From: an uncultured Clavibacter sp. | GTDB taxonomy: Bacteria > Actinomycetota > Actinomycetes > Nanopelagicales > Nanopelagicaceae | Direction: 5' to 3' | Assembly: GCA_937883945.1 (NCBI GenBank) | Contig: CAKZXY010000080.1 | Span: 1 to 37,510, forward strand | DNA length: 37,510 nucleotides | Shown: piece by piece, positions 4,923 to 37,510 of the stretch | How positions within the stretch are numbered: position 1 is the first letter of the stretch | How the letters are laid out: every line of letters starts with the position of its first letter | Position numbers and translations under genes: made by a program | Notes under the pieces: model-generated | What the model saw: the letters and a program-made list of their open reading frames with translations, nothing else | What the model was told of the DNA's origin: nothing | Database searches by the model: none

Positions 4923-5474
4923 TTACTCATACATATGCTTAGCAAGCACGGCAATAAAGGGAAGGTTTCTATACTTCTCATTGAAATCTAGTCCATAGCC
5001 AATGACAAAATCCTTTGGAATATCAAAGCCAACATACTTCACTGCAACTTCAACTTGAGCAGATTCTGGTTTTCTAAGAACAGTCATTATCTCAACGCTC
5101 TTTGCCCCGCGAGATTTAAGGTTTGCACTTAACCAATCAAGTGTTAGGCCAGTGTCAACAATATCTTCAACGATTAAAACATTTCTTCCCGTAATATCTT
5201 TATCCAAATCTTTCATAATTCTTACAACACCTGATGATTTTGTTCCAGAGCCATAGGATGAAACAGCCATCCAATCCATATCTAGGTGTCGATTGATATA
5301 TCGTGATAGGTCAGCCATAACCATCACTGCGCCTTTTAGTACGCCGATAAGTAATAGATCTTGATTTTTATAATCCGCTTCAATCTGGGCAGCTATCTCT
5401 TTTAAGCGAGCTTGTAATTGTTCATCAGTTACAACTACGCGTTCAATCTCGCCCTTGACTGATTCCAGATCCAC
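4923..5474 (-). CDS. hpt: hypoxanthine phosphoribosyltransferase
   Basis: LLIGVLKGAVMVMADLSR..., VLIVEDIVDTGLTLDWL (PRPP motif), VGFDIPKDFVIGYGLDFNEKYRNLPFI. Confidence 0.96.
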   Translation of the reverse strand: MDLESVKGEIERVVVTDEQLQARLKEIAAQIEADYKNQDLLLIGVLKGAVMVMADLSRYINRHLDMDWMAVSSYGSGTKSSGVVRIMKDLDKDITGRNVLIVEDIVDTGLTLDWLSANLKSRGAKSVEIMTVLRKPESAQVEVAVKYVGFDIPKDFVIGYGLDFNEKYRNLPFIAVLAKHMYE

Positions 5475-5499
5475 TCTTCGCCCTCTCGCCTCGTTTTAA

Positions 5500-6477
5500 C
5501 TATTCCTGCCCACTGCTTTTAGAGAGCGAAAGTCTGCCCGAAATTCGAGCCACGGTCACACCACCAGGAAGTGAGATAGCCCCTTGCCCCTTCCAGGCTG
5601 TGATGAGGGACTCAACAGGCTCAATATGCTCTGCTGAAAGTGAGCCCTGCGGGGCTCCAGCTAGATAGATAGCTCTTCTTAAGATTCTAGTTCTAATGGC
5701 CCGGGGCTGTGATTCAAGCTTTGAGATATCTAGCGATGCTGGATCTAACTTAGAAAAAATCTCATCACTTAATGAATCAAGCGCGTCGGCATCATCTCGG
5801 AGCAACTTGGCAGATCTTGCAAGGGCATCACTAATACCGGGGCCAATCTCCTTCTCCATTGTTGGCAGAACTACTTCGCGAACTCTCACTCTTGTAAATT
5901 CCATTGATTGATTATGAGGATCTTGCCAGAACTTAATTCCAGCTTCTGCACATGCTGCCTCTGTCTGCGCTCTAGTAATTGCAAGAAGCGGTCTGCGATA
6001 GCGATCAGCTCGTGCTGCCATTCCAGATAGTGAGCGAGATCCAGATCCTCGCGCAAGACCAAGCAGTACTGTCTCTGCCTGATCATCTCTGGTATGTCCT
6101 AGAAAAATAGCAACTGCATTATGAGAGTTAGCCACATCGCTTAAAGCTTGATAGCGAGCTCTTCTTGCTGATGCCTCTAGGCCATCAGTGATTTCAACAG
6201 TAACTCGTCTGATCTCAATATTTTCATAACCGATTTTTGTAAGCGTTCGCTTTGTTTCATGGGTGACATCTGCTGAATTTTTCTGTAAGCCATGATCGAT
6301 AATTAGAGCAATTACTTTAATTGATTTTGCTTTGCACTCTAATAACAGAGCTACGGCAAGAGCTGAAGAATCTGCTCCGCCAGAGGCAGCAACTAGGACG
6401 CTATCGCCTGCAGCAATGTCTTCTAATTCAGATCTAACAGCAAGGCGGATCTGATAGAGCGGGGTGGTTTCGGCCAT
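5500..6477 (-). CDS. tilS: tRNA(Ile)-lysidine synthase
   Basis: SGGADSSALAVAL PP-loop; GHTRDDQAETVLLGLARGSG. The ORF extends to 6513 but MAETTPLYQIRLAVR (start 6477) is the more likely N-terminus. Conserved position next to hpt-ftsH. Confidence 0.93.
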   Translation of the reverse strand: MAETTPLYQIRLAVRSELEDIAAGDSVLVAASGGADSSALAVALLLECKAKSIKVIALIIDHGLQKNSADVTHETKRTLTKIGYENIEIRRVTVEITDGLEASARRARYQALSDVANSHNAVAIFLGHTRDDQAETVLLGLARGSGSRSLSGMAARADRYRRPLLAITRAQTEAACAEAGIKFWQDPHNQSMEFTRVRVREVVLPTMEKEIGPGISDALARSAKLLRDDADALDSLSDEIFSKLDPASLDISKLESQPRAIRTRILRRAIYLAGAPQGSLSAEHIEPVESLITAWKGQGAISLPGGVTVARISGRLSLSKSSGQE

Positions 6478-6496
6478 GAGGCTAAGGGTAATCGCC

Positions 6497-7705
6497 CTAG
6501 ACCCGGCCTCCATATGGCATTAATCCCTTAACGCTATAAATATTGGAGAAAAGCAGGCCTGTCTTTGTGGAATTTGCCTCCCACATCATTCCGTTTCCAG
6601 CATAAATACTGATGTGATGAATGGTGTTTACCGTTCCTTTATAGGAGTAGAAAAGTAGGTCACCCGGTTCTAACTGACTTAATGGAACATGTTTGGTGTA
6701 ACTGAAATAAAGAGATGAATTGAGACGATCCCAATTTGGCCAGCCAAGTCCTGCTGCGCGATAAGCGGCATAAACTAAACCAGAGCAATCAAAAGTATTT
6801 GGACCTTCATCGCCCCATACATATGGTTTTCTGGCTAGCACTTGCTTCTTGGCAAAAGCCACAGCAACTTCTCGCATCTCTGGAGTGGAGCGAGATGTGC
6901 TCCGTCCTTTAAATCCTGCATCAGGCCAGACTTTGGTATAGACATTTGTAGTAGTTGCAATATTTGCATTTGCTTCTTCTAATAAAGCAAGTTGTCTCTG
7001 TTGTTCAAGAGTTACGCGTGTCTTTCTTGCTGCATTGAGCTCTTTTAATACCTGATCTTGAATCTTTTGAAGTTTATCCACTTCTTTTTGCTGAGCATTT
7101 CTAGCCGCATCTGCCTCAATTTTGGTCTCTTCCACTTTTTTAGTTGCTACCTCTTGCGCTGCTTTGGCGTAATCAGCTGCTTTCTTTGCTTTTGCAGCTG
7201 CTTCCTCTGCTGCCTTAAATCTAAATAGAGCTTGGGTGTTTTGATTTCCTAAGGTGTCAAGAGTTGAAAGGCGATCCATTAAATCTTGTGGTCCATCAGA
7301 GTGAAGTACTGCGTTTAAATCAGTAAATCCACCCCCCATGATGTAGGCATTGGTGGCAAGACGTCCAATGGAATCATGCGCAGCTTTAACTTCACTCACC
7401 GCAACGCTATAAGCGGCTGCAGCAGATTGAGCTTCTTTAGTTGCAATTGCTAGCTCTCTCTTTGCTGCTTCATATTTAGCTCTGGCTGCATTGGCAACTG
7501 CTGTTAATTGTTTTAAAGTTAAATTTGCTTTACTTAATTTGGCAGCAGCAGCATCTGCAATCTTCTTTTTCTCTGCTTCAGCTTTCTTTGCAGCTTCGAT
7601 CTGAGCAATAGTTGGCTTGGGAGTTTTGCCATAGGCAGGGCTATGGGCAATCAGAAGTAAAAAGGAGGTGGAGAGCGCTATTAAGCGGGCGCGTTTAGAT
7701 TTCAA
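6497..7705 (-). CDS. secreted NlpC/P60 peptidoglycan endopeptidase with N-terminal coiled coil (RipC-like)
   Basis: Signal peptide; Ala/Lys-rich coiled coil; C-terminal NTFDCSGLVYAAYRAAG...DLLFYSYKGTVNTIHHISIYAG. TTG start with AGGGAG Shine-Dalgarno-like sequence upstream. Confidence 0.9.
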   Translation of the reverse strand: MKSKRARLIALSTSFLLLIAHSPAYGKTPKPTIAQIEAAKKAEAEKKKIADAAAAKLSKANLTLKQLTAVANAARAKYEAAKRELAIATKEAQSAAAAYSVAVSEVKAAHDSIGRLATNAYIMGGGFTDLNAVLHSDGPQDLMDRLSTLDTLGNQNTQALFRFKAAEEAAAKAKKAADYAKAAQEVATKKVEETKIEADAARNAQQKEVDKLQKIQDQVLKELNAARKTRVTLEQQRQLALLEEANANIATTTNVYTKVWPDAGFKGRSTSRSTPEMREVAVAFAKKQVLARKPYVWGDEGPNTFDCSGLVYAAYRAAGLGWPNWDRLNSSLYFSYTKHVPLSQLEPGDLLFYSYKGTVNTIHHISIYAGNGMMWEANSTKTGLLFSNIYSVKGLMPYGGRV

Positions 7706-36553: not shown

Positions 36554-36967
36554 TTGCAAATTATTCTTGGAATGACCCTGATCTACGCCGGGACGCTACA
36601 TCTCACCTCTCAAAGATTAGAGTTCCAAGCTCAAGTTCCCCCTTGGTTAGGTCTTGACCCAGACTTTGTAGTTCTTGCCTCTGGTTATGTTGAGATAGCA
36701 CTGGGCATTGCGCTAATTACTCTTTGGAAATTTCGCAAAGAAGTTGGGTTAGCCACAGCCCTCTTCTTTATTCTTATTTTCCCTGGAAATATCCGTCAGT
36801 ATGTTGATGGAATTGACGCTTTTGGTCTAGACACTGATAGAAAAAGAGCGATAAGGTTATTATTGCAACCGCTCTTAGTTTTCTGGGCGCTCTGGTCAAC
36901 TCATGCTTTTAAGAAACATATCTTGCGCGCCCGTAGGGATTCGAGCTCCAAACCTTCTAATCCGTAG
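36554..36967 (+). CDS. DoxX-like small membrane protein
   Basis: YAGTLHLTSQRLEFQAQVPPWLG...ASGYVEIALGIALI...FPGNIRQYVDG. Start codon uncertain (TTG 36554 or ATG 36571). Confidence 0.8.
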   Translation: MQIILGMTLIYAGTLHLTSQRLEFQAQVPPWLGLDPDFVVLASGYVEIALGIALITLWKFRKEVGLATALFFILIFPGNIRQYVDGIDAFGLDTDRKRAIRLLLQPLLVFWALWSTHAFKKHILRARRDSSSKPSNP

Positions 36968-36969
36968 TC
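36924..36969 (-). pseudogene. tRNA-Arg(ACG)-like 3' half (possible att-site remnant)
   Basis: Minus strand gaCTACGGAttagaaggtttggagctcgaatccctacgggcgcgca: anticodon loop CTACGGA, T-loop CTCGAAT, acceptor CGGGCGC. A 73-nt 7-2-4-9-4-1-5-7-5-5-17-7 layout can be drawn (36999-36927), but the anticodon stem does not pair, T54 is C and the D-loop lacks GG. Confidence 0.6.
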
Positions 36970-36984
36970 TTCTACGCCTTTATT

Positions 36985-37001
36985 TTGCGCATTAGGCGCA
37001 A
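36985..37001. terminator. bidirectional terminator-like hairpin downstream of the DoxX-like gene
   Basis: TTGCGC-ATTAG-GCGCAA followed by TTTCTAATTACTTTT. Confidence 0.5.
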
Positions 37002-37199: not shown

Positions 37200-37510
37200 A
37201 TGCGGCAACGAACACTCGCGATATTGAGCCTGATTCTTCTGCAATTCACACTCTCTCCATTACAAGTGGCAAGCTCTGCAAATATTGCTGGGAAAAGTTG
37301 TAGCAAAGCCGGAATTACAAAAATAAATGGTGGCCTTAAACACACCTGCATCAAAAAAGGGAAGAAACTAATTTGGAATAAGGGGGTAGCCACCCAGCCC
37401 TTGGCTGAAGCACAACCACAACCACAGCCACAACCACAGCCACAACCACAGCCACAACCACAACCACAACCACAACCACAACCACAACCACAACCACAAC
37501 CACAACCACA
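37200..37510 (+). CDS. secreted protein with Cys-pair module and Pro-Gln repeat, truncated by window edge
   Basis: MRQRTLAILSLILLQFTLSPLQVASSANIAGKSCSKAGITKINGGLKHTCIKKGKKLIWNKGVATQPLAEA(QP)n, open to the window end. TAGTTT-6nt-ATG upstream. Not in the ORF track because there is no stop. Confidence 0.75.
   Translation, partial: MRQRTLAILSLILLQFTLSPLQVASSANIAGKSCSKAGITKINGGLKHTCIKKGKKLIWNKGVATQPLAEAQPQPQPQPQPQPQPQPQPQPQPQPQPQPQPQP
37413..37510 (+). repeat. hexanucleotide tandem repeat (CAACCA/CAGCCA)n coding for (Gln-Pro)n
   Basis: CAACCA CAACCA CAGCCA CAACCA CAGCCA CAACCA CAGCCA CAACCA ..., about 16 units, still running at the last base. Confidence 0.97.

Follow-up and report, generated by a model that had tools for sequence, protein, structure and literature searches.

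A displaced tRNA-Arg(ACG) half at the end of a DoxX-like gene marks a probable small genomic island in a freshwater Nanopelagicaceae genome

The sequence examined here, hereafter called the window, is a 37,510-nucleotide stretch that makes up the entire contig C80 of G000, a 1.18-Mb metagenome-assembled genome (MAG) of the Nanopelagicaceae in 125 contigs. Near the end of the window, the gene for a DoxX-like membrane protein finishes within the 3′ half of a tRNA-Arg(ACG) gene carried on the opposite strand, and a gene for a secreted repeat protein follows. This arrangement is very probably the scar of a small integrative cassette that joined its host at the anticodon loop of tRNA-Arg(ACG), where the tRNA gene had overlapped the DoxX-like gene beforehand. 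It is a new case of a known class, the additive island flanked by tRNA fragments, located in freshwater Nanopelagicaceae at tRNA-Arg(ACG).

The minus-strand letters of positions 36924-36969, GACTACGGATTAGAAGGTTTGGAGCTCGAATCCCTACGGGCGCGCA, agree with the genus-consensus 3′ half of tRNA-Arg(ACG) at 43 of 46 positions (three differences), and the runner-up ungapped match in the entire window, both strands included, reaches 24 of 46. The sequence GACTACGGATCAGAAGGTTTGGGGTTCGAATCCCTACGGGCGCGC was found in about 10 congeners, complete or cut by a contig end, within tRNA-Arg(ACG) or a half copy of it. Against the intact tRNA-Arg(ACG) of G000 itself, the scar is identical at 36 of 43 positions, with a score of 58 compared with at most 33 for the rest of the window. 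The stop codon TAG of the DoxX-like gene (36965-36967) complements the CTA of tRNA positions 32-34. The terminator-like hairpin that had been noted in place of the tRNA 5′ half does exist, but its folding is ordinary (z-score -1.26) and gives it no special support.

Relatives display the site both empty and occupied. In G005, G021, and G011, a complete tRNA-Arg(ACG) converges tail-to-tail on the DoxX-like gene, the 3′ end of which it overlaps. The DoxX tails in G021 and G011 are ILRARRDSNPKPSDP or VLRARRDSNPKPSDP, and there too the stop codon complements tRNA positions 32-34. In the window, G001, G018, and L108, the tRNA 3′ half still ends the DoxX gene, and the sequence beyond the anticodon loop departs within a few bases and is different in each. 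All four diverge at the point equivalent to 36969..36970, and the empty sites run on from there into the tRNA 5′ half. A reading made from the window alone (the sequence-only reading) had proposed a displaced tRNA half at an island boundary with a break at the anticodon loop, and the consensus match and these two sets of sites bear it out on both points. The G005 record (L084, C4) carries a one-base deletion in its tRNA-Arg(ACG) (5255-5328), which is a probable sequencing error because the FNR gene of the same record (5392-6704) is also frameshifted.

The occupied sites differ in how much of the insert can be followed. A single contig of G018 holds, in order, DoxX, the half copy, a gene for an MscS-type channel, a decayed third half copy, a complete tRNA-Arg(ACG), FNR, and tRNA-Ser(GCT). 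In L108 (RFXN01000046.1), two exact repeats of the tRNA half enclose 7.3 kb of genes for sugar uptake and kinases. This contig is filed under a Fonsibacter lacus MAG, and its DoxX and tRNA-Arg sequences are actinobacterial (Nanopelagicaceae); it is probably misbinned. Only the scar was seen in G001. Beyond that scar (L089, C8, about 5117-5309), and up to the contig end, are several CGGGCA direct repeats, which could be integrase arm-binding sites, together with an inverted repeat and a stray fragment of the tRNA 5′ half.

The intact tRNA-Arg(ACG) expected elsewhere in the genome is indeed present. It is the sole one found in G000 and lies at C90:658-731, with FNR and tRNA-Ser(GCT) after it in the order also seen in G005 and G018. 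A search of G000 for a second copy of the scar produced a partner in this diverged tRNA but no second identical 46-bp copy. The tRNA is chimeric: over the 5′ half it matches the congeners exactly, and five positions of the 3′ half are different. A tree of FNR places G000 with G018 (support 85/78), and G005 and G021 join them in a group supported at 99/99; all three of these relatives keep the common 3′ half. Most simply, an incoming element would have supplied the new 3′ half, and the old half would have stayed at DoxX. Because DoxX, tRNA-Arg, FNR, and tRNA-Ser(GCT) are syntenic in G005 and G018, C80 is predicted to adjoin C90. The orientations of the scar and the C90 tRNA are compatible, and in G018 a single contig carries the complete arrangement. 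From this synteny, and from a cargo gene split between the two contigs, we infer that they are adjacent in the real genome. A complete tRNA and a displaced 3′ fragment in the same orientation, with the island predicted to lie between them, are present.

The secreted repeat gene next to the scar, which had been singled out as a variable-looking neighbor, proved to be the cargo of the island. It runs off the contig within a CCACAA repeat encoding Pro-Gln (37403-37510). The part of it that encodes the signal peptide and the open frame at C90:2-550 correspond to opposite ends of one 841-amino-acid open reading frame in G012, and this homologue has a Pfam match to NHL repeats. The insert would thus be about 2.6 kb, with one secreted NHL-repeat gene whose middle would account for the missing ~1.4 kb. 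In G047, which belongs to another genus, the first bases of a contig fall in this Pro-Gln repeat, and the protein encoded after it is 90% identical to the part encoded on C90. The DoxX-like protein matches G047 at 58% over residues 2-78, and this difference in identity is a sign of transfer. The CCACAA repeats break the assembly of the cargo gene in both genera, in the window at 37403-37510 and in L257 (G047:C8) at 1-75.

These observations suggest the following course of events. Before insertion, tRNA-Arg(ACG) would have stood tail-to-tail with the DoxX-like gene and overlapped it. The cassette would then have entered the anticodon loop by site-specific recombination, and the tRNA 3′ half that it carried would have rebuilt a working tRNA on one side (the present C90 gene). 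The original 3′ half would have been displaced to the other side, where it still encodes the end of the DoxX-like protein and is decaying slowly. The joining enzyme was most likely a tyrosine integrase, either encoded by the cassette and now lost or acting in trans.

Several points weigh against this account. No integrase was seen in the sequenced ends of the island, about 1.4 kb of whose middle is absent from the assembly. The search of G000 for a dedicated integrase gave only two PF00589 matches, both XerC/XerD-sized; genomes of the genus mostly show just two Xer-sized recombinases. Furthermore, no contig of the MAG, which is 87.6% complete, spans the whole island, and the placement of the overlap before the insertion is based on a small set of genomes.

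It had also been proposed that the integration itself gave the DoxX protein its new C-terminus. The DoxX-like protein has matches in 38 of 100 related genomes. The tail is lineage-specific: it is restricted to genomes in which DoxX abuts tRNA-Arg(ACG) or its half, and other orthologues end differently. The 3′ ends of DoxX outside the subclade (G015, G016, G019, G002, G006, and others) have no tRNA similarity, and the tails there are unrelated rather than conserved. A tail that is both lineage-specific and tRNA-derived is what this proposal would predict. However, G021 and G011 have the same tail with a complete tRNA and no island, and for this reason the tail appears to have come from an earlier convergent overlap of DoxX and the tRNA. 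The tail is tRNA-derived and lineage-specific, but an island is not required for it, and the proposal is largely refuted and improbable. In a variant, an earlier island could have made the DoxX/tRNA junction and then left by clean excision. Relative to G021, the window has changed at 3 of 45 bases in the tail and 21 of 369 in the gene body, so that the scar seems to have changed at about the gene-body rate since insertion. Between G021 and G011, both with an intact tRNA, the corresponding counts are 0 of 45 and 55 of 369.

The remaining alternatives fare worse than insertion at an overlapping tRNA. The scar might be no attachment site but a tandem duplicate of the tRNA-Arg gene that has decayed and lost its 5′ half, and a copy with three substitutions that no longer scores as a tRNA would fit that history. 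Nevertheless, four separate records break at the anticodon loop with differing sequence beyond it, the copy linked to DoxX is the original and not the duplicate, the odd 3′ half sits in the working copy, and the L108 insert is bounded by exact repeats. A decayed duplicate is therefore very unlikely. The antisense position invites the thought of a functional tRNA, or of a tRNA-derived antisense RNA that regulates DoxX. Yet ARAGORN and Infernal/Rfam found no tRNA at 36924-37001, where the threshold of the full-cloverleaf covariance model was missed, and an overlapping functional tRNA was rejected on those results. The 5′ half is absent, bases of the T arm are mutated, and the folding is not unusual; a role as RNA is hardly credible. 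Finally, chance similarity, retained because the protein tail matters, can be dismissed: several congeners share an identical tail peptide, but that identity is explained by an intact tRNA or a recent insertion, the three tail changes in the window all alter the protein with none silent, and a 43-of-46 match is far beyond chance. Coincidence is already refuted by the relatives that have an intact tRNA in this position.

Features at the end of the window, with positions in window coordinates
Feature	Position	Strand	Basis or remark
DoxX-like membrane-protein gene, convergent with the old tRNA gene	36554..36967	plus	open reading frame; weak DoxX/MauE Pfam matches, under the cut-off
DoxX C-terminal tail RARRDSSSKPSNP with its stop, read from the strand opposite the tRNA 3′ half	36923..36967	plus	tail comparison
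Displaced tRNA-Arg(ACG) 3′ half, anticodon loop to acceptor stem, with conserved CAAGA	36921..36969	minus	attachment-site scar, 3 substitutions
Island boundary	36969..36970		tRNA-Arg similarity ends just 5′ of the anticodon loop
Hairpin TTGCGC-ATTAG-GCGCAA	36985..37001		at the end of the island, on its inner side; could be a terminator but lacks significance
Island cargo, 5′ end of gene for secreted Pro-Gln-repeat and NHL-repeat protein	37200..37510	plus	cut by the contig end; 3′ end is G000:C90:2-550

The protein is called only DoxX-like, since its DoxX Pfam score of 18.0 bits is under the gathering cut-off of 23.6 bits.

Across the family, the tRNA-Arg(ACG) half is often present twice, a few kilobases apart, and eight such places were inspected for content. 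A tyrosine integrase adjoins the tRNA in the same-site inserts of G159 and G123. The inserts of G024 and G162 contain one gene for a secreted-type protein, and those of G134 and G034 contain two or three genes. A 13-kb stretch of sugar-metabolism genes lies at tRNA-Arg(ACG) in G038. Differing cargo occupies this tRNA in G000, G018, L108, G006, G024, G134, G034, and G162. The viral contigs L197, L214, and L217 carry the same tRNA half with an integrase gene within ~150 bp. On these comparisons, tRNA-Arg(ACG) is a family-wide insertion hot spot, with a tyrosine integrase in some inserts and without one in most of those seen. A more tentative, and rather doubtful, extension is that the Nanopelagicaceae tRNA-Arg(ACG) might act as a loading dock for integrase-less cassettes, often holding a single secreted-protein gene. 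Such cassettes, somewhat like those of integrons, would travel between species with the help, in trans, of integrases from phages or other elements that use the same core.

Scars of this kind are well known, and the mild twist is that a protein gene overlapped the intact tRNA before insertion. The Islander signature consists of a regenerated tRNA and a displaced fragment at the island ends, with fragments that overlap coding sequences also counted (PMC4383910). The present case shares with Islander islands the regenerated tRNA, the displaced 3′ fragment in the same orientation, and the anticodon-loop class of crossover, but that list requires an integrase, whereas none was found here and the insert is only ~2.6 kb (PMC4383910). 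Small tRNA-repeat cassettes have been described for streamlined aquatic bacteria (PMC7771536, PMC10872708). The stacked copies in G018 resemble the additive flexible islands with tRNA-fragment direct repeats of ‘Ca. Actinomarinales’ (PMC7771536) and the tRNA-Lys repeats of ‘Ca. Methylopumilus’ (PMC10872708). In contrast to those islands, the present one is in freshwater Nanopelagicaceae, uses tRNA-Arg(ACG), and has its outer repeat inside a protein gene. Tycheposons are likewise tRNA-bounded cargo elements of aquatic bacteria; they are described as 4-200 kb in size and as encoding a tyrosine recombinase (PMC10872708), and here no recombinase was seen in an insert of about 2.6 kb. Prophages and integrative elements of actinobacteria that sit at tRNA-Arg(ACG) (L197, L214, L217, and G159) share the core sequence and the break at the anticodon loop but have a tyrosine integrase adjoining the core. 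The site illustrates how very small free-living genomes can swap surface-protein genes at a fixed place while leaving an essential tRNA unharmed, and it offers a clean case in which a tRNA provides the closing codons of a protein gene.

A separate arrangement involves tRNA-Arg(TCG). In G016 (L092, C49, 5024-5840), tRNA-Arg(ACG) and tRNA-Arg(TCG) are both complete and ~670 bp apart. In G013 (L093, C75, 2193-2323), a tRNA-Arg(TCG) fragment, running from where the D arm stops through the 3′ terminus, comes directly after tRNA-Arg(ACG), which looks like the product of a deletion between the two tRNAs.
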